Of a DNA stretch of 64,000 nt, positions 45,061 to 55,619 are shown piece after piece. The DNA is taken from NCBI RefSeq assembly GCF_003966895.1, contig NZ_AP018449.1, positions 751,424 to 815,423 on the forward strand. The letters run 5' to 3'. Every line of letters starts with the position of its first letter. Position 1 is the stretch's first letter. Origin of the DNA: Methylomusa anaerophila. GTDB taxonomy: Bacteria > Bacillota > Negativicutes > Sporomusales > Sporomusaceae. Below the pieces are notes generated by a model. It searched no databases, was not told where the DNA came from, and was given only the letters and a program-made list of their open reading frames with translations. The position numbers and the translations under genes were made by a program.

Positions 45061-48000
45061 TTACAGTGCCGTTCCTTCAGATGCTTTCGGTCTATGACGC
45101 CAGTGCTTCAGTTTGGCTGTAATCCATTCGACAACGACAAACAGTACGGGGATGAGGAAAATGCCCAGAGACGTAGCCACAAACATACCGCCAACAACAG
45201 CCGTGCCCATTGAGTTTCTAGCGGCGGCACCGGCGCCGGTGGCAATTGCCAGCGGCAAGCAGCCGATAATAAAGGCCAATGAAGTCATGAGAATTGGCCG
45301 CAGCCGTATTTTCGACGCCTCAATGGCTGCCTGTACCGGGTCCATTCCTTTATCCACGCGCACTTTGGCAAATTCCACAATCAGAATGGCGTTTTTCGCT
45401 GCCAGACCGATCAGCATAATCAGACCAATCTGCATATAAACACTGTTTTCCAAAAGCCGCATGTGCTGGAACATGAAAGCACCGAATATCCCTGTAGGTA
45501 CGCACAGGAGAACCGCAAAAGGCACACTCCAGCTTTCATATAAGGCCGCCAGGCAAAGGAAGACAAATAGCATGGCAAAACCAAATACAAGCGGCGCTTT
45601 GCTGCCGGATAATTTTTCTTCCCGGCTTTGCCCGGACCATTCGTAACTCACTCCACTCGGCAAAGTCTGGGCAGCCACTTCCTCTAGCGCAGTCATGGCC
45701 TGACCGGAACTGTACCCGTTATTGGGGTTTCCGCTGATTTTGATCGCTTTAGCGCCGTTAAAGCGGGTAATCAGGGTCGCCGCATTAGTAGCTTTCGGTT
45801 TCAGCAGCGTGTCCAGCGGAATATCGGCGCCGCTTGAACTCTTTACAAAGAAAAACTTCGTCGCCTCCAAATCCGCGCGATATCCAAGATCGGCCTGCAG
45901 CATAACTTTGTACGTGCGGCCGAATTTATTAAAATCATTTACCTGTGTGCCGCCCAGATAAGTTCCTAATGTTGTATACACATCCGCTATCGACACACCC
46001 AGCTTTTGGACCTTGTCTCGGTCAACTTCATACTGGAAGCCCGGCGTATTTGCCCGGAAAGTGGTGTATATGGCCCCTATTTCCGGACGCTTTCTGGCTT
46101 CAGCCAGAAATTTTTGGGCAAGAGCGTCAAATTCGTTGGTTGTGCCGCCGCTTCTGTCTTCAAGCACCAGCGTAAAGCCGCCTGCCATGCCCAGTCCAGG
46201 CAAAGCCGGCGGGGCAAAGGCCATTACTGTGCCTTCCGGCAACCCTCCGGATTTCATAAAGATCTGTCCAATTTCCGCTTTTAGCTGTGTGTTGGGAGTT
46301 TTGCGTTCATCCCATGGTTTTAGTTTTATAAGCATCGTAGCTGTATTCGATTTTGCGCCGCCCCCCAGCATATCATAGCCCACAATTGTCATGGCACTGT
46401 CCACGCCAGGCTGACTCAAAACCTGATCTCTCAATTTGGCGATTGCCCGGCCGGTACGCTGCAAGCTGGCCGCCTCCGGCAAAGTGAGGGAGGAAATGAT
46501 AAAGCCCTGGTCTTCATCCGGCACGAAGGTGGAAGGAACGATCTTCATTAAAAAACCGGCACCGATGGTGAGGACAAGAATAAAAATCAGGCACAAGCGC
46601 CCGTGGGGGATGAGTTTGCCAAGCCCCCGGCCGTAGCGTTCGATCATATTTTCAAACCAGGTATTAAAACCTGTAAAAAAGCGTCCCACCATTCCTTTAT
46701 GTTCATCCGGATTGTAGGGCTTGAGAATGGAGGCGCATAAGGCCGGCGTCAGCGATAAGGCGACCAACGCGGACAACGCCATGGACACAACAACTGTCAA
46801 GGCAAACTGTTTATAGAGTATTCCCATTGTCCCGCCGAAAAAGGCAACCGGTAAAAATACCGAGGCCAGCACAAAGGCGATTGCCACCACCGGGCCGGAC
46901 ACTTCGCTCATAGCTTTCTTCGTCGCTTCCTTCGGCGATAAACCGGAATACCGCATATGATGCTCAGTGGCCTCAATTACCACAATGGCGTCGTCCACTA
47001 CCAAACCGATTGCCAGCACCATGGCAAATAAAGTCAAGGTATTAATGGAAAAATCCAGCGCGACAAAAGCGCCGAAAGTACCAATTAGCGATACCGGAAT
47101 GGCCAGCATGGGAATCAGCGTCGCCCGCCAGCTTTGCAAAAACAGGAATACTACCAGCATAACCAAGAGTAATGCTTCCATAAAGGTCTTTACGACTTCA
47201 CTCATGGACTCTCTGACAAATTCAGTCGTATCAAAGATAACTTTGTGTTTTAAACCGGGCGGATATTGTTTCGAAGATTCTTCCAGCACTTTCTTTACAT
47301 TGCTGACGGTTTCCAAGGCATTCGCATCACTTGCAAGTTGAATAACAAAGCCGGCAGAAGGATGCTCGTTGGCGAAACCTTCCACAGAGTAATCCTTACT
47401 ACCCAGCTCAATTTGGGCAACATCTTTCACCCGGATAAAGGACCCGTCTTTTTGCGCCCGGATAACGATATTGCCAAACTCCTCCGGATCGGACAAACGC
47501 CCCTCAACCCGGGCGGTATATTGAAATTCCTGGCCGGCCGGGGCGGGATTCATGCCCAGGGTACCCGCCGGCGCCTGCTTATTCTGGCTGGAAATAGCGT
47601 TGGATATCTCACTGACGGTTACCCCAAGCTGGGCCAGCTTATCGGGCTGCAGCCAAATGCGCATAGCATAGTCAGCGCCAAACTCCATAATATTGCCGAC
47701 ACCCTTAACCCTTTTGATGGCGTCTTCCAGATAAATGGTTCCATATGTTTTCAAAAAGCTGCGGTCATACTCATCATTTTCCGAATACAACGTGAAAATA
47801 AACGCAAAATCATTGGTTGCTTTGCGGGTCGTTACCCCGGATGTCCTAACCGAGTCAGGCAGCGAAGCGTCCGCCTGGGAAACCCGGTTCTGCGTCTGCA
47901 CGGTTGCAATGTCCGCGTCCTTACCGGTTTCAAACTGCACACTCAGCGAATAGGCACCGGCGTCTGAACTGGTGGAGTCCATGGATACCATGTCCTCAAC

Positions 48001-48213
48001 CCCATTCACCTGTTCTTCGATGGTCTGCGCCACCGTCTGTTCCACAACTTCGGCATTAGCACCCTGATAATTGGCCCCTACCCTGACAGTTGGCGGGGCA
48101 ATCTGCGGATATTGGGCAACCGGCAAGTTAAACGCTGCAATTAAGCCTGTCAAAGTAATGAGAATAGATAACACAATAGCAAATATCGGGCGCTCGATAA
48201 AAAACTTAGCCAC
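45061..48213 (-). CDS. RND multidrug efflux permease (AcrB/MexB, HAE1)
   Basis: Full-length 1050-residue HAE1 pump. MAKFFIERPIFAIVLSILI starts helix 1. The periplasmic domain begins PQIAPPTVRVGANYQGANAEVVEQTV. The proton relay lies in LAIGLVVDDAIVVIEATEHH, and the second half has the GLAAKNAILIVEFAK motif. It is much closer to enterobacterial AcrB than the pump at 22469. It starts at GTG, 14 bases after the adaptor gene. It probably exports hydrophobic drugs or bile-like compounds. Confidence 0.95.
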   Translation of the reverse strand: MAKFFIERPIFAIVLSILITLTGLIAAFNLPVAQYPQIAPPTVRVGANYQGANAEVVEQTVAQTIEEQVNGVEDMVSMDSTSSDAGAYSLSVQFETGKDADIATVQTQNRVSQADASLPDSVRTSGVTTRKATNDFAFIFTLYSENDEYDRSFLKTYGTIYLEDAIKRVKGVGNIMEFGADYAMRIWLQPDKLAQLGVTVSEISNAISSQNKQAPAGTLGMNPAPAGQEFQYTARVEGRLSDPEEFGNIVIRAQKDGSFIRVKDVAQIELGSKDYSVEGFANEHPSAGFVIQLASDANALETVSNVKKVLEESSKQYPPGLKHKVIFDTTEFVRESMSEVVKTFMEALLLVMLVVFLFLQSWRATLIPMLAIPVSLIGTFGAFVALDFSINTLTLFAMVLAIGLVVDDAIVVIEATEHHMRYSGLSPKEATKKAMSEVSGPVVAIAFVLASVFLPVAFFGGTMGILYKQFALTVVVSMALSALVALSLTPALCASILKPYNPDEHKGMVGRFFTGFNTWFENMIERYGRGLGKLIPHGRLCLIFILVLTIGAGFLMKIVPSTFVPDEDQGFIISSLTLPEAASLQRTGRAIAKLRDQVLSQPGVDSAMTIVGYDMLGGGAKSNTATMLIKLKPWDERKTPNTQLKAEIGQIFMKSGGLPEGTVMAFAPPALPGLGMAGGFTLVLEDRSGGTTNEFDALAQKFLAEARKRPEIGAIYTTFRANTPGFQYEVDRDKVQKLGVSIADVYTTLGTYLGGTQVNDFNKFGRTYKVMLQADLGYRADLEATKFFFVKSSSGADIPLDTLLKPKATNAATLITRFNGAKAIKISGNPNNGYSSGQAMTALEEVAAQTLPSGVSYEWSGQSREEKLSGSKAPLVFGFAMLFVFLCLAALYESWSVPFAVLLCVPTGIFGAFMFQHMRLLENSVYMQIGLIMLIGLAAKNAILIVEFAKVRVDKGMDPVQAAIEASKIRLRPILMTSLAFIIGCLPLAIATGAGAAARNSMGTAVVGGMFVATSLGIFLIPVLFVVVEWITAKLKHWRHRPKASEGTAL

Positions 48214-48227
48214 TTAATCAAACCCCC

Positions 48228-49388
48228 TTATTGCTTTGCCGAACTTTGCAAATCGTTTAGTCCGACCATGGTTACTTTCAACTGGGCGCCGGGCTGAATC
48301 TTGGTGGTGCCTTCAATGATGACACGGTCACCCGGATTCAATCCCTCTTCAACAATCCATAAGTTTCCTATACGCGGCCCCATTTTTACCACGCGTGATT
48401 CGGCTTTATCGCCGTCACCAACCACATTCACCAGTGTTTTGCCCAAAAGCTCCTGCACCGCCCGCTGTGGTATCAGCATGGCATTTTGGCGTACTTCCCC
48501 CTGGGCAATCACTCTGGCAAACATGCCCGGCAGCAGCGTTTTTTGCGGGTTGTCAAAGCCGGCTTTCACAGTAATGGTACCTGTATTCTGATCCATTCCC
48601 CTGTCGATCTGCTCCACCGCCCCAGCCAGCGGATACTCCGTCCCGTTACTGAGGACCAGTTTCAGATTGCTGCCCCAGGTTCCTGGTAAAGAACCATTAC
48701 CCAGCTGCATCATTTTCAGATATTCGTTTTCATTAATGCTAAATTGCACAAAAACCGGATCAATCGAAGAAATCGTCGCGATGACAGTTGATCCTGCCGT
48801 TACAAAACTTCCCAGACTTAGATCATTCACATCAATACGGCCATCAATCGGGGATACAATCAATGTATCCTGCAAATCGGCCTGGGCCTTCTGCACATTC
48901 GCATCGTTGGCAGCCGCCGCAGCCTCATATTGTTGCGAAGCTGACTCAGCTGTGTCATAGGTTTGCTCCGCGATTGCATTTTGGGCAGCCAGCTGGCGAT
49001 ACCGTTCAGTATCCCGCCGTGAATTGGCCAAGGTTGCCTGACTCTGCGCCAGTTGAGCCTTAGCCGACAACACCGCGGCTTCGTACTGACGGCGATCAAT
49101 TTGAAACAATGGCTGACCCTGGGAAACCATCCCCCCGCCAGTGACCATTTTTGCCACAATATTGCCGGAAACTTTGGCTTGCAGTTTTACCTCATTTTTG
49201 GCCTGGACCTGACCCACATACTCATATGTAATCGGAGTATCCTGTTGTACGACCGCCATCGCTTTCACCTCGACAGCCTGCGGTGCTTGTTGTCCCGCCT
49301 GGCGGCTGCCGCAGCCGGCAACGATGGTTGCGGCCAGTAAAAACACCAAACCAAATCGCCACAGCCTTCTGCCACTATTTCGATTCAC
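48228..49388 (-). CDS. RND efflux adaptor (AcrA/MexA-type lipoprotein)
   Basis: Membrane fusion protein of 386 residues. The signal has a lipobox, VAGC, so Cys26 is likely lipidated. It contains the first lipoyl half YVGQVQAKNEVKLQAKVSGNI, a helical hairpin (residues ~95-170), the DTLIVSPIDGRIDVNDLSLGSFV half, and a beta-barrel. GGAGG precedes a GTG start. It is co-transcribed with the pump and follows the TetR gene by 36 bases. Confidence 0.94.
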   Translation of the reverse strand: MNRNSGRRLWRFGLVFLLAATIVAGCGSRQAGQQAPQAVEVKAMAVVQQDTPITYEYVGQVQAKNEVKLQAKVSGNIVAKMVTGGGMVSQGQPLFQIDRRQYEAAVLSAKAQLAQSQATLANSRRDTERYRQLAAQNAIAEQTYDTAESASQQYEAAAAANDANVQKAQADLQDTLIVSPIDGRIDVNDLSLGSFVTAGSTVIATISSIDPVFVQFSINENEYLKMMQLGNGSLPGTWGSNLKLVLSNGTEYPLAGAVEQIDRGMDQNTGTITVKAGFDNPQKTLLPGMFARVIAQGEVRQNAMLIPQRAVQELLGKTLVNVVGDGDKAESRVVKMGPRIGNLWIVEEGLNPGDRVIIEGTTKIQPGAQLKVTMVGLNDLQSSAKQ

Positions 49389-49424
49389 TGATCTTCCTCC
49401 CTATTATTTCAGAAATAAACATAA

Positions 49425-50000
49425 CTACTCAGTTATATCGTTTTTTTGTGCCAGCATTCCGTTTAGCAGCACATCCACCATATAGGTAAATGCTTCCCCC
49501 AGCGAGATACTGTTATGGACAAGGAATTGATAATTAACAATTTCTTTGCGGGTGCCATCCAGTATTTTCTTTACAACCGGCAAGCAGACAGGACGAAGAT
49601 GGCCCTTTTGAATTCCTTCCCGCAAAAAAATATCCATCCTTTCCCATTCCTGATCGTTAAACCGATCAAACTTCTCGTACTCCATGGGCAGACACCGCTT
49701 GATCTCCTCCGCAATTCTGCCGTCGTCCGGCAGCAGGTGTTTCTTGGGAGTCAGAAGTTGTTTCAATTTTTCGGAAAATGTCAGATTGGGATCACGAAAA
49801 ATAGCAGTCCGCTGCTCCCGGATTTCCTGCAGCGTAAAATCCACAATAGCGCCAATCAGTTCTTCCTTCGACGCAAAATACTCATACAACAGCCGTTTGC
49901 TTACTCCCAGGCGGTGCGCCAAATCCGCCATGGTGAACTTGATGCCTCTTGCCCGCATTTCCTCTGTTGCGGCTTGCATTATTCTTTGCCGCACCCACAT
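49425..50000 (-). CDS. TetR/AcrR family transcriptional regulator
   Basis: About 191 residues. The helix-turn-helix is FTMADLAHRLGVSKRLLYEYFASKEELI; the rest is the helical ligand domain. It is the first gene of the adaptor-pump operon and probably represses it. ATG 50000 and GTG 50003 are both possible. On the minus strand TTGACA (50119-50114), an 18-bp spacer and TAATAT (50095-50090) form a good promoter about 90 bp upstream. Confidence 0.9.
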   Translation of the reverse strand: MWVRQRIMQAATEEMRARGIKFTMADLAHRLGVSKRLLYEYFASKEELIGAIVDFTLQEIREQRTAIFRDPNLTFSEKLKQLLTPKKHLLPDDGRIAEEIKRCLPMEYEKFDRFNDQEWERMDIFLREGIQKGHLRPVCLPVVKKILDGTRKEIVNYQFLVHNSISLGEAFTYMVDVLLNGMLAQKNDITE

Positions 50001-50089
50001 CACCCCTAACTTACCGCTTTTTCAGGTGACTGTTATTTACTGTCGAAACTTCAGAAACCAGAATCGAATCAATCGGTACCATAAATCTA

Positions 50090-50187: not shown

Positions 50188-50231
50188 CAAAAAAACCGTC
50201 CCCCCAGTTTATTAAGCTTGGGGAACGGTCT
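50188..50231 (-). terminator. Terminator of the radical SAM gene
   Basis: On the minus strand ACCGTTCCCC..AG pairs with CT..GGGGGACGGT around an A/T-rich loop, followed by seven T. Confidence 0.8.
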
Positions 50232-50309: not shown

Positions 50310-52073
50310 TTATATGGCATTTTTCCGGGGTACAGGAAAATCAGCGGCAAAATGGGGACTGTTCGTGGCTGCCAGGGCTTGACTGCTGGCGTTTATTTGG
50401 TCAACCACCGTGCGCAGATATTGGGAGCTGCCGCTCATAATGTCAATCAGCGAGTTCTTTTGAAACTGCAGCAGGTCCAGCTTGGAGCGGTAGCCGATGG
50501 CTTCCGTCATCATCAGCAATTCGTCGGAAACGCCGATAGGTATTCCCATGGCTTGAATGGCCTGGCGCAAACGACCGTTTTCCCGTAAAAGCCGAGGCAC
50601 ATCCTGACCGTTTAGCATATAATCAAGTTTGGGCCAGAATTCCGCCGGTTTGTGGATGGAATACTCATACTCCATTAATTCCGGCGTAAATCCCGCTCCG
50701 GCCTTAAAACCAAAGGAATCAGCCTGTTCAAACCAGATTGTTCCCGGAAAAATTCCGGGGGGATTGACGATAACGGTGTCCGGCAGCGTATCTTCAATTA
50801 GACGCAAGTTGGCCTCAAACACACTTTCCAGACTAACTCCCGGCGGCACCGGGCAGGGATAAATCAACGCCAGCCCAATGCGGCAGGGGGCGCCGGCTTC
50901 CGCCGCGGCCAGTTTCAGGCAGTGAATGGTGTCGATGATGTCCTGACGGGTCACGCCTTTGTTCATGATCGCCGCATTGACAGCATCATGGCCGGTTTCG
51001 CCGCCCATGAACACCGCCCGCAAACCGGCGCGGATCATTTGGCAATAGGCTTGATAAGTTTGGTCCGTGACTTTTCCCGCCCGGACAAACATGGAATAGC
51101 GGATGTTGATATTATTTGCCAGCAGCATTTGGGCAATGGCTTTACCCTGATACACCGGCGTTTCGGAACTGCTGAACCGGAAAAAGGCGATTCCCTGCTG
51201 AATCATGGTGACTATTTCGCCTTTAATCTGTTCTACCGGCCGCGGCGTATAAGGGATTTGCTGTCTGGTATGGGAGCAAAAATTGCATTTGTTCCAGGTG
51301 CAGCCCACCCCGTCAACCAGAGTATGGAACAACATTTTGTCGGTTAGCTCAGCCGGCGTGTAGCGGGGAATGCTGTTAAAAGTGGCCGTCGGCACGCTTT
51401 TGCCGCTGTACTGACCCACCCGGATCAACGGCGCCGGACTGATATTATGCCGTACCAGCCGCAAAAATTCCTCTTTGTTTGCCGCCGTCCAGCGCAACCG
51501 GAGCAGTTTTTCCAGCATTTGTTCCCCCGGCCCCATGATGGCCAGATCGAAATGCCGGTTCCGGGTGACATATTCGCCATAAACGTTTACCTGGGGACCG
51601 CCGACAACCACCACCGTTTCCGGAGCGGCCTGCCTGACTTTGGCCGCCAGCATGGCGCTCCATTTATAGGAATCGCCGTACCAGCTCTTGATGCCCACCA
51701 CCGGGATATTCCCTTCCTTTACCAATTTCACGATAGTATCAGCCAGCTCCTCCATATACCGGCGGCGAAAATACAGGCCGGCGGCCTGGACCGGCCAGGC
51801 GGCCAGCATAAGCGGCAGCAGCAATAATTTTTTTTGGCGGGCATATACTTTGATCTGCCACTCTACCAGACGGCGCAGCAATCTGTTGACCCAGCGGGGA
51901 ACGCCCTTTTCAATTGCCCCTACCCGCTGCTCGTCAATTACCGCCACGGCAAAGCCCTTCTTTTCCAGATAGGTGCGCAGCAGCGCCAGGCTGTTTTCCA
52001 GGGCGGTATCGGAAGCAATCCGGTTGCGCGGCGCAAAACTGTTGACAAGCAGTAAATCAATCCTCTTATTCAC
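50310..52073 (-). CDS. Radical SAM protein with B12-binding domain
   Basis: 587 residues. The N-terminal part (1-200) resembles a cobalamin-binding domain (VVVVGGPQVNVYGEYVTRN) without a clear DxHxxG motif. The radical SAM domain has a CX4CX2C motif, Cys258-Cys263-Cys266 in GCTWNKCNFCSH. GGETGHDAVNAAIMNKGV and RIGLALIYPCPVPPGV follow. BchE/HpnR-like enzymes methylate or rearrange unactivated carbons; this substrate is unknown. It starts at GTG overlapping the upstream gene by eight bases behind a strong AAAGGAGG, so the two are co-translated. Confidence 0.85.
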   Translation of the reverse strand: MNKRIDLLLVNSFAPRNRIASDTALENSLALLRTYLEKKGFAVAVIDEQRVGAIEKGVPRWVNRLLRRLVEWQIKVYARQKKLLLLPLMLAAWPVQAAGLYFRRRYMEELADTIVKLVKEGNIPVVGIKSWYGDSYKWSAMLAAKVRQAAPETVVVVGGPQVNVYGEYVTRNRHFDLAIMGPGEQMLEKLLRLRWTAANKEEFLRLVRHNISPAPLIRVGQYSGKSVPTATFNSIPRYTPAELTDKMLFHTLVDGVGCTWNKCNFCSHTRQQIPYTPRPVEQIKGEIVTMIQQGIAFFRFSSSETPVYQGKAIAQMLLANNINIRYSMFVRAGKVTDQTYQAYCQMIRAGLRAVFMGGETGHDAVNAAIMNKGVTRQDIIDTIHCLKLAAAEAGAPCRIGLALIYPCPVPPGVSLESVFEANLRLIEDTLPDTVIVNPPGIFPGTIWFEQADSFGFKAGAGFTPELMEYEYSIHKPAEFWPKLDYMLNGQDVPRLLRENGRLRQAIQAMGIPIGVSDELLMMTEAIGYRSKLDLLQFQKNSLIDIMSGSSQYLRTVVDQINASSQALAATNSPHFAADFPVPRKNAI

Positions 52074-53256
52074 GACCCATTCCTCCTTTAACCGCTTTAA
52101 GTCTTACCGGGTGCATACCGACAGGCATCGTCAGGCGCAAGTTCCGGATTATTTGGTGCCCGGCCTGCGGCTGGCGGCGGCAGAACCGCTCGAAGCCCTG
52201 CCGCGGAATAACCAGCACTTCCGAATCCGCCGCCGCGCTTATCGTCGCGTACTGGGGACGCGGTTCCGTTAACCCGGTCCCGCCGAAGCTTTCTCCCGGC
52301 TGTATTAAACGCTGAACGCCGGCACTGTCGGTCAGTAATGCACCGGTAAGCAGAATAAATACTTCATTGCTTACCTCGCCGGGACTGACCAGGCAATCAG
52401 CTTCGTAACAAGTCACTACCACTCCCGAATGCAACAAGACGGCGGACTCATCTTGACTTAATCCGGCTAACAACGGCACGGCCGCCAAGGGAGACTCGCC
52501 GAGCTTCTTTGTCACTATCTTCCATAAGTCATCTTTGCGTATTAATTGTGAATTGATGTATCTTGCTGCTTCCGGGAATGCGTGGAGAAATGCTTGTCCC
52601 CATTGGTTGTCATTGGATAATTCTCGCGCTACCCGGTAAAAGGGAGACCGGACGGCTCGGAAATGTTCTACATCCTCCACCACCATAATAAGGGGGACAA
52701 GCAGTCCATAACCGGGATCGGTAAAATTACGGGAAAATTTTCTAAAACCCAATTGTTCATATAATGGAATTAAATGTGGGTTACATCCAGTAAAAGTAAA
52801 TTTGACATGATTCGTTCGAATCATTTCATAAGCCTTGGCCGTAAGCATATATAAAACTTGTGAACCACGATATTTTTTTTCAATTGATAATTTAGTAGCC
52901 AAACAAAATGTTTGATTGCTACCGTCAACAAGTGTTTGAAACTTTTCCATATAAAACGTTTTTGTCAAATCCTGCGGAAATTGTCCCATATTACCGAACA
53001 TAACCCTTAGTGTGCCGATGATACCCAAATTGCTCTGAGCATAAAGTAGTTGACTGTATTCATCCATACAATCACTTATCATACCGAAATTTTGCTTGTT
53101 TTTTTTTATAAATTTACCCATTCCTTCCGCCAGCACCCGATAGCGAAACTTATAGATTTCCCGTTTCTCAGCCTGACTATGCGCTACATGGATAGAAACT
53201 TCATCGTTTCTGGGCACCATATAATTCTCTTTGTTAAGTAGCCCTTCTTTTCCCAA
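52066..53256 (-). CDS. FeeM-like N-acyltransferase fused to a cyclic-nucleotide-binding domain
   Basis: 396 residues. Residues ~20-215 match the N-acyl amino acid synthase/LuxI-like GNAT fold: KREIYKFRYRVLAEGMG, a GTLRVMFGNMGQFP strand, the LATKLSIEKKYRGSQVLYML acyl-CoA loop and NPHLIPLYEQLGFRK. Residues ~265-385 are a Crp-type nucleotide-binding barrel: EVSNEVFILLTGALL and PGESFGGTGL. No DNA-binding domain follows. It may make an acylated metabolite controlled by a nucleotide. A TTG start sits seven bases behind AGGAGGG. Its end overlaps the radical SAM gene. Confidence 0.8.
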   Translation of the reverse strand: MGKEGLLNKENYMVPRNDEVSIHVAHSQAEKREIYKFRYRVLAEGMGKFIKKNKQNFGMISDCMDEYSQLLYAQSNLGIIGTLRVMFGNMGQFPQDLTKTFYMEKFQTLVDGSNQTFCLATKLSIEKKYRGSQVLYMLTAKAYEMIRTNHVKFTFTGCNPHLIPLYEQLGFRKFSRNFTDPGYGLLVPLIMVVEDVEHFRAVRSPFYRVARELSNDNQWGQAFLHAFPEAARYINSQLIRKDDLWKIVTKKLGESPLAAVPLLAGLSQDESAVLLHSGVVVTCYEADCLVSPGEVSNEVFILLTGALLTDSAGVQRLIQPGESFGGTGLTEPRPQYATISAAADSEVLVIPRQGFERFCRRQPQAGHQIIRNLRLTMPVGMHPVRLKAVKGGMGRE

Positions 53257-53421: not shown

Positions 53422-53451
53422 AAAAAAGAAAGCCCTTTTTATTGGGCTTTC
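53422..53451 (-). terminator. Terminator of the histidine kinase gene
   Basis: GAAAGCCC (53428-53435) pairs with GGGCTTTC (53444-53451); on the minus strand it is followed by seven T. It separates the kinase transcript from the FeeM-like gene. Confidence 0.85.
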
Positions 53452-53480: not shown

Positions 53481-55145
53481 TTATATTTCTTTCGGTATTT
53501 TAAACCGGACGATGAACGTCGTTCCCCGGCTACTTGTATCGACCTCAATTTTGGCCTGATGCCTGTTGGCAATCCGGTAGCAGGTTGCCAGTCCCAGTCC
53601 GGTCCCGTTTTGTTTGGTGGTGAAAAACGGCCGGCCCAGATTGGCCAAAACATTCTGGGGTATGCCTTTACCCTGGTCCCGGACGGTAAATACCACCGCG
53701 TCATTGTCCGCATATGTCCGCAGGGTCAGGGAATAGCCGGTGTCGTCCATGGCCTCAAGACCGTTGCGCACCAGGTTCAGGATCAATTGCCGGATTTCCT
53801 TGGCATCAATATACACGGCCGGTATGTCGCCTAAATCCAGCACTATTTCCTTGCAGGCAGCGACGGCGTCGGCCGTGACCAGCGGGTATAGGGATTCAAT
53901 AATCGTATTTAGCTGGACCAGGCGCATATCAGCCATTTTATTCTGGCTTAAAGCCAGGTACTCTTTGATGATCTGGTTGATCCGGTCCAGCTCCGCCAGC
54001 AGTTGGTTAAGCTGTCCCTGATAATTGACGAATTCTTTTTTCCGGGAAAAAATCTGCAAATAGCCGCTGATGGTCGTCATGGGGTTTCTGACTTCATGGG
54101 CCATGCTTGCCGCCATCTGCCCCACGGCATTGAGACTTTCCAGCCGGGCGACGTCCTGCTCCAGCGCTTTCCGCGCCGAAACGTCGCGGACTATCCCTTC
54201 AAAGCCGACGCAGCTGCCGTCCTCGCTGAGCAGCGGCGCCAAAGTCTGCTCCACCCAAATGGCCCGCCCGTCCCGGTGAACGAAGCGCATTACCAGCGGC
54301 TGAACGGCGGCAGCCACATCGGCCATAACCATCTCCAGCAGCGGCCAGTCGTCCGGGTAAACAATAGTGCGCATAATGTCCGCTCTAGCCTGGAACTCTT
54401 CCGGCGAGTAACCGGTCAATTTGGTTATCGACGGACTGATATATTCGAATCCCGCCAGCGGCGCCAGCCGGTAGCGGTAGATGACATCCACGGCGTTTTC
54501 GGCCAGCAGCCGGTAGTGTTTTTCCTTGACCTCCAAGTCCCGGCGGGTTTTTTCAAAATAAACGATCAGCGTGCCAATAGCAATCATAAGTCTCAATGCC
54601 GCATCCAGCATAAAGCCGAATGGTGCAAACCAGGCAACCTCAATAAAGAAAGGCAGATCCATCATATGAATTCCTAAAATAATAAAAGCAGCGCCGGTAA
54701 TATTCTTGCCCCAGCCTTGTATGCCAGCGTGACGAAGGAGCAGTATTCCTGTCCAACAGTATACGGCGCCGATAAACAAACACGCCGGTAATACTCTTAA
54801 ATAAAACGGTAAAGCAGCCAAGGTGGCAATACTGCTTATACCAATGGTAATCACCGTAATAAACCACCACACTGGATGCAACTTTTTTTCTAAAAACTCT
54901 ACCGTACCATAAAGCAGGATGAAACTGGCTATTATCATTAAAACGGCAAATCCAAGAAATGCTGGGAGACTAAGCTCAGAATATGAGACACGAAGAAAAA
55001 ATGACCGTATTAGACACATTGCCCAGCTAATCATCCACAAGGCTAAATAACGTTGCCGGTATTGAAGGTAAAGATAACCATAAACACAGGTAACACAAGT
55101 AATAGCTGATAATGAGATTATCATGGAGATTTCAATGACATTCAT
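53481..55145 (-). CDS. PAS sensor histidine kinase with membrane input domain
   Basis: About 554 residues. Six or seven transmembrane helices (residues ~5-200) precede a PAS/PAC domain (210-325, YRLLAENAVDVIYRY and FVHRDGRAIWVEQTL). The dimerisation helix has the phospho-acceptor in MAHEVRNPMTTISGYL. The ATPase domain includes NLVRNGLEAMD (N box), DQGKGIP (G1) and GTGLGLATC (G2). No response regulator is adjacent, so it is an orphan. ATG 55145 is used; a TTG adjoins it. It is divergent from the CoA-disulfide reductase gene, with a 538-bp gap. Confidence 0.88.
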   Translation of the reverse strand: MNVIEISMIISLSAITCVTCVYGYLYLQYRQRYLALWMISWAMCLIRSFFLRVSYSELSLPAFLGFAVLMIIASFILLYGTVEFLEKKLHPVWWFITVITIGISSIATLAALPFYLRVLPACLFIGAVYCWTGILLLRHAGIQGWGKNITGAAFIILGIHMMDLPFFIEVAWFAPFGFMLDAALRLMIAIGTLIVYFEKTRRDLEVKEKHYRLLAENAVDVIYRYRLAPLAGFEYISPSITKLTGYSPEEFQARADIMRTIVYPDDWPLLEMVMADVAAAVQPLVMRFVHRDGRAIWVEQTLAPLLSEDGSCVGFEGIVRDVSARKALEQDVARLESLNAVGQMAASMAHEVRNPMTTISGYLQIFSRKKEFVNYQGQLNQLLAELDRINQIIKEYLALSQNKMADMRLVQLNTIIESLYPLVTADAVAACKEIVLDLGDIPAVYIDAKEIRQLILNLVRNGLEAMDDTGYSLTLRTYADNDAVVFTVRDQGKGIPQNVLANLGRPFFTTKQNGTGLGLATCYRIANRHQAKIEVDTSSRGTTFIVRFKIPKEI

Positions 55146-55619
55146 CAAAACATCCCACCCATAGCAATTCTTTTTATGTCAGACTGGCCATGCAGTTTGG
55201 AAACGGCACCAGCGCAGTATGAAAGTGCTATTTTAGAGGATAGAATTTATAACTTTTCGGGAAGATACAATAGTTGATTGATCTGCAATTTAGACAAAAG
55301 CGAGCTTATATCCTTCGTAACATGAAAAAGTTTTTTATGGCCCGTCTTCTTTCATAGGCAAATGAGCTGCTTTACCAGAACAACAGGCACCATTATGAGT
55401 ATTATGAGTGACTGCCAAAATTCTTTACAATTCGCAGCCGCCTGTGTCTTTCTTAACCGCCAAACCGCCAACAAAAATATATTTATATAATTCCATAAAA
55501 GTTAAAATACTCCTCTAAGCATCAAAATATTCCTGATTATTTCTCTTCGTTCCCGAATATTCAGAAAGAACCAAATTGGCCAATAATAATATAAAATTTT
55601 CTTTAAATTACATTACAGG

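Follow-up and report, generated by a model that had tools for sequence, protein, structure and literature searches.

Linkage of a synthase gene to the gene for a receptor kinase is typical of CqsA/CqsS systems (PMC3285556). In these and in LuxM/LuxN, the receptor is a multi-TM histidine kinase co-inherited with the synthase. Among acyltransferases, the FeeM-type N-acyl amino acid synthases (PF21926) adopt a GNAT fold and include Nas343 and Nas354, which are fused to a PilZ-type domain, while the LuxI acyl-homoserine lactone (AHL) synthases (PF00765) are represented structurally by TofI and RpaI. In Gram-positive bacteria, the quorum-sensing signals known are mainly peptides and AI-2. Here we describe a cassette from the window (the whole 64,000-nucleotide stretch of Methylomusa anaerophila DNA that was analysed) that shares features with each of these systems. 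Its acyltransferase, F, has the GNAT fold, finds its best structural match in FeeM, exceeds the FeeM Pfam gathering score and likewise carries a C-terminal regulatory domain, but one of the Crp type; it also has a fold in common with LuxI proteins over about 175 residues. As in CqsA/CqsS and LuxM/LuxN, the gene is linked to and co-inherited with that of a multi-TM histidine kinase, HK, and in one subtype it is followed by R, a B12/radical SAM protein. We give an even chance to the proposal that HK-F-R is a synthase-tailoring-receptor cassette of Negativicutes for a putative acyl-type signal.

Gene layout and the F and R proteins

The preliminary description of this locus took it to be a unit of two same-strand ORFs overlapping by 8 bases, and the minus-strand genes R and F indeed overlap in this way (Table 1). 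It also placed a strong ribosome site inside the overlap; a strong Shine-Dalgarno sequence, AAAGGAGG, is present 8 nt before the R GTG, but it lies in the last F codons, just upstream of the overlap. R is translationally coupled to F. Both genes and their domains are real, yet the unit was incomplete: it also takes in the histidine kinase gene that directly precedes F in the same orientation, across a 224-bp gap. Because one hairpin lies between HK and F and another follows R, HK and F-R are probably separate transcription units. No sigma-54 promoter was found 5′ of F in any of 65 loci, and in the search for a conserved operator there, the only enriched words that could be recognised were ribosome-site, terminator-like and kinase-coding ones. 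Downstream of R, the window encodes an RND efflux pump, a periplasmic adaptor and a TetR regulator (45061-50003, minus strand), which are not conserved with the cassette.

Table 1. Positions of genes, domains and sequence elements of the cassette in the window
Feature	Position	Strand	Basis
R: B12-binding/radical SAM protein, 587 aa, GTG start	50310..52073	-	Pfam, family alignment
F: FeeM/LuxI-fold acyltransferase + C-terminal Crp-type barrel, 396 aa, TTG start	52066..53256	-	Pfam, model, fold search
HK: membrane histidine kinase, 555 aa: 7-TM sensor, PAS_3, HisKA, HATPase_c	53481..55148	-	Pfam
HK seven-helix sensor domain, about 205 aa, no Pfam family	54519..55148	-	AlphaFold model
F acyltransferase domain, residues 17-204	52645..53208	-	Fold match to FeeM 2g0b, AHL synthases
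F cyclic-nucleotide-type barrel, residues 240-380, degenerate phosphate-binding cassette	52117..52539	-	HCN2 1q3e match
R Shine-Dalgarno within F 3′ end	52082..52089	-	Sequence
R Fe-S motif C258-x4-C263-x2-C266	51276..51302	-	Family alignment
Terminator-like hairpin + T-run between HK and F	53428..53451	-	Sequence
Terminator-like hairpin 3′ of R	50190..50230	-	Sequence, read by eye

The assignment of F as a FeeM-like acyltransferase, made in the preliminary description, is borne out by its predicted structure (pLDDT 89.7), which matches FeeM (2g0b) best, with a Z score of 17.1 over 171 residues (residues 17-203). The AHL synthases TofI (3p2h, Z 15.4) and RpaI (6wn0, Z 15.1) align over 174-177 residues (residues 20-215), and short GNATs, with Z about 16, over only about 142. 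F matches PF21926 at 3.5e-9 (37.1 bits, gathering cut-off 27), as do 55 of 58 F members to this profile. A PDB search with the sequence of the GNAT half yields nothing beyond weak GNATs (AHL synthases at E 0.3-0.8); the LuxI family PF00765 has no match in the window F and matches 2 of 58 members (best E 0.015). The invariant residues of F include R38, D65, R84, R130 and E167, and we take R38, D62xxD65 and R84 to be at LuxI-like positions. Residue 119, at the site of the FeeM catalytic Glu, is L/F/S in all 23 R-linked proteins and Y/F/V/L/T in 41 of the 42 other members, and the LuxI E-x-x-R pair is replaced by a hydrophobic residue and K122. The FeeM catalytic Glu is essential in Nas354 (PMC4897644). 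F is, by its modelled fold, a FeeM/LuxI-fold acyltransferase, yet by the catalytic-residue test it stands outside FeeM. Residue 45 is Gly in the window F but Glu in 64 of 65 family members.

The C-terminal half of F is a Crp-type barrel without a DNA-binding domain, as had been stated: Pfam finds cNMP_binding (PF00027, 5e-11) and no HTH, and HCN2 (1q3e) matches with Z 16.8, which identifies a CNBD fold. The nucleotide control proposed with it found no support. At the position of the phosphate-binding Arg, the window has Q335 and the 65 relatives His (41) or Gln (18); at that of the ribose-binding Glu, the window has G326, and 16 of 65 have Glu. These replacements weaken the case for cyclic-nucleotide control of F, and a nucleotide is, from the residues present, an unlikely barrel ligand. 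Members without R often have His276, Cys277, Cys283 and His335 in the barrel, residues that might form a metal, haem or redox site.

The domains of R agree with the B12/radical SAM assignment of the preliminary description, as both PF02310 (B12-binding, 8e-11) and PF04055 (Radical_SAM, 6e-10) score above cut-off. Of 24 family members, 23 have C258, C263 and C266, and most of the distant homologues share the x4 spacing. Judged by these domains and the three Fe-S cysteines, R is a predicted B12-dependent radical SAM enzyme. It falls far below the NCBIfam cut-offs of the nearest families, with 55 bits against 600 (E 5e-15) for PhpK TIGR04479 and 46 bits against 360 (E 2e-12) for ladderane-type TIGR04072, and a sequence search returned no solved relative.

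With R as query, a homologue search beyond the relatives found distant homologues (26-38% identity) in Deltaproteobacteria, Kiritimatiellae, anammox planctomycetes and others. Of 15 such other-lineage loci, 6 (L141, L142, L144, L151, L152 and L154) have a FeeM-type synthase no more than a few kb from the R homologue, and three of these have two; 0 of 17 control loci with weak relatives have one. Three anammox loci instead show a FabF-like ketosynthase (named from sequence) and a histidine kinase after R. These synthase and ketosynthase neighbours lead us to infer that R is tied to acyl chemistry. The FeeM-type homologues in L142 and L144 retain the catalytic Glu. L141, L142 and L144 each hold an AMP-binding ligase in addition to the R homologue and its two adjacent FeeM-type synthases, and L141 and L142 also a nearby decarboxylase-like gene (function guessed from sequence). 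Directly upstream of another R homologue, L150:4866-6002 encodes a response-regulator receiver joined to a domain weakly like GNATs, in a record named as a Woesearchaeota MAG that is possibly contamination.

Conservation and joint inheritance of the cassette

Among 60 relatives, 65 full-length F homologues (31-44% identity) are present in 35 genomes and 24 R copies in 22, and the occurrence of F and R in these relatives is far beyond chance. Whether the two genes always co-occur, a question raised in the preliminary description, has a split answer. F adjoins 23 of the 24 R copies, all 23 with an intact Cys motif, and R is present in 24 of 250 genomes of the class, where three additional copies likewise lie in sensor-F-R triads; over relatives and class, 26 of 26 intact R copies follow F. 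For R, the outcome that the preliminary description had named as a refutation, homologues occurring mostly apart, is therefore not seen; in contrast, 42 of the 65 F genes are without R. Sporomusa, Propionispora, Lucifera and Anaerospora are among the named carriers. The 24th copy in the relatives (L125:8286-9950, the same as L140; Sporomusa acidovorans) has no adjoining F and has lost the Fe-S cysteines; the stretch that holds them and another stretch are deleted, and the gene is apparently decaying. Genomes contain several independent F paralogues, and in many of them, as in Sporomusa ovata, R-linked and R-free cassettes coexist.

The kinase is the more constant partner. In a sensor profile search of the 60 relatives, all 65 F genes have the same 7-TM sensor encoded no more than 500 bp away, and neighbour clustering identifies the kinase as the one constant neighbour, with no exporter or other biosynthetic gene conserved around F in the relatives. 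Five of the 65 loci, including two from the genome of the window itself, have the same sensor joined to another kinase core, without PAS, and a REC-AraC response regulator is called there, divergent to F. Since the sensor is the same despite the differing kinase core, the conserved pairing is that of synthase with sensor domain, and Negativicutes possess a conserved HK-F(-R) cassette. The two loci in the window's own genome, L103 and L121, contain further F genes, each with a PAS-less kinase and a divergent REC-AraC regulator.

The sensor is modelled by AlphaFold as seven helices (pLDDT 95.3). It has no matching Pfam family, and a fold search shows only a general resemblance to GPCR/rhodopsin-like seven-helix bundles (Z 11-13). 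About 20 of 85 sensor copies in the relatives have no nearby F, and none of the 65 F genes there is without an adjoining sensor. The window's own genome encodes a fifth sensor kinase copy with no F nearby (L201:6367-8064, C1 near 1272400). Beyond the class, the phylum sample comprises 397 other genomes; 24 of them encode the sensor without F. It belongs there to kinases or, as in L186, L187, L190, L192 and L195, is fused to GGDEF-EAL or GGDEF-HD outputs.

The patristic distances among sensor domains correlate with those among GNAT domains (r 0.86), a value reached by none of 2000 within-genome partner swaps (mean 0.31, maximum 0.64), and the correlation is again 0.86 within the common kinase type alone. 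Thus, the cassettes are inherited as units; this correlation does not show that the sensor binds the product, and the joint phylogeny is also compatible with plain co-inheritance of linked genes. In the sensor tree, R occurs on a single side only, with 2 state changes. Two further patterns were rejected: a closer co-evolution of the sensor with F than with its own kinase core was due to the five other-core loci, and the idea that R maps to the sensor tree alone, as opposed to the GNAT tree, fell because placing R on a single side of the latter is not rejected by an AU test (p 0.82).

Spo0A is present in all 35 genomes with F, and F in none of the 13 genomes lacking Spo0A, with a naive p of 1e-6 in which kinship is uncontrolled; a link of the cassette to sporulation stays an idea.

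A putative acyl signal and competing explanations

Recognition of the sensor kinase, overlooked in the preliminary description, moves the likeliest meaning of the locus from a regulated metabolite to a signal. In the proposed mechanism, F would transfer an acyl group, probably from an acyl-carrier donor, to an amine that is probably amino-acid-like, and R, as a cobalamin-dependent radical SAM enzyme, would modify the F product or the acyl donor, most likely by C-methylation. The product would be recognised by the 7-TM sensor of the neighbouring kinase, which would signal to a response regulator. This partner would be encoded at another locus and possibly act through the Spo0A network or, in the second subtype, would be the REC-AraC protein from the divergent gene next to F. 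Where one genome has paralogous cassettes, some with R and some not, these would be separate channels. Support for signalling comes from the invariable sensor linkage, the correlated distances, the confinement of R and its position after F in every intact case, the FeeM/AHL fold, and the FeeM-type synthases near distant R homologues. The occurrence of sensors without F but of no F without sensor is a pattern as in LuxR solos, and we count it for signalling. Counting against it, F has neither the FeeM catalytic Glu nor the LuxI E-x-x-R pair. F-less sensors fit receptors that listen without making the signal and equally a sensor of a common cue; their use on other outputs in Bacillota means that the domain may detect something general, and it is here that the signalling model is weakest.

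Linkage alone fits both a kinase that senses the product and a kinase that controls the enzyme. Indeed, the main rival to signalling is a regulated acyl-lipid pathway, in which an ordinary sensor kinase responding to membrane state, nutrient or redox switches on F-R, and the lipid-like product (a surfactant, membrane modifier or antibiotic) is itself unsensed. The use of the sensor domain without F, with c-di-GMP outputs, in other Bacillota is in keeping with this, as are the probably separate transcription units of HK and F, often found for a regulator and its target. A generic sensor, however, need not adjoin F in 65 of 65 cases, in several independent paralogues per genome, and the neighbourhood of F conserves no exporter or other biosynthetic gene; we consider this explanation rather unlikely. 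We find it quite improbable that acyl-metabolite synthesis is switched by a cyclic nucleotide on the F barrel: the clear CNBD fold, the Pfam match and the Glu kept in 16 of 65 members have to be set against an Arg changed to His or Gln in 59 of 65, retained in 1 of the 42 R-free members listed, and replaced in the window by Q335, which faces the Arg of SthK, MlotiK1 and PKA in alignments. The same lack of cAMP residues in the barrel speaks against F being a gated protein acyltransferase acting on HK or R, like the mycobacterial cAMP-gated Pat. Pat combines the same two kinds of domain, and GNAT protein acetyltransferases are weak sequence matches of F; the domain order is reversed in Pat, though, and the GNAT half of F resembles FeeM and AHL synthases over about 175 residues, including a C-terminal part absent in short GNATs, and we give this possibility very little credence.

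Relation to described systems

No earlier description of an HK-F-R unit was found in the literature searched. F differs from FeeM in having Leu, Phe or Tyr in place of the catalytic Glu95 and in its constant partner, the sensor kinase. Mycobacterial Pat joins a GNAT and a CNBD in one chain, as F does, but in the reverse order, with a different GNAT subfamily and a working cAMP pocket. R is like the PhpK and ladderane-type methyltransferases in combining B12-binding and radical SAM domains, but unlike them it has Cx4Cx2C spacing and is dedicated to F. Compared with CqsA/CqsS and LuxM/LuxN, the cassette has another synthase fold, an unassigned 7-TM sensor, an extra barrel and a radical SAM enzyme, and its signal is putative.

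Taken together, we tentatively suggest, with somewhat less than even confidence, an undescribed acyl-signal system of spore-forming Bacillota, in which a LuxI/FeeM-fold synthase with a non-nucleotide Crp barrel is paired with a 7-TM kinase receptor and the signal of one subtype is tailored by B12-radical chemistry. A radical-SAM-modified signal would, if real, be new chemistry. Sporomusa and its relatives are acetogens used in electrosynthesis, and since several are culturable, the signalling prediction is open to experiment. In contrast to LuxI systems, F occurs in Bacillota, with no LuxR, without a PF00765 match in the window and with hydrophobic-x-x-K in place of E-x-x-R; a fatty-acyl signal from such a LuxI-type synthase would, if confirmed, bridge the Gram-positive and LuxI worlds.
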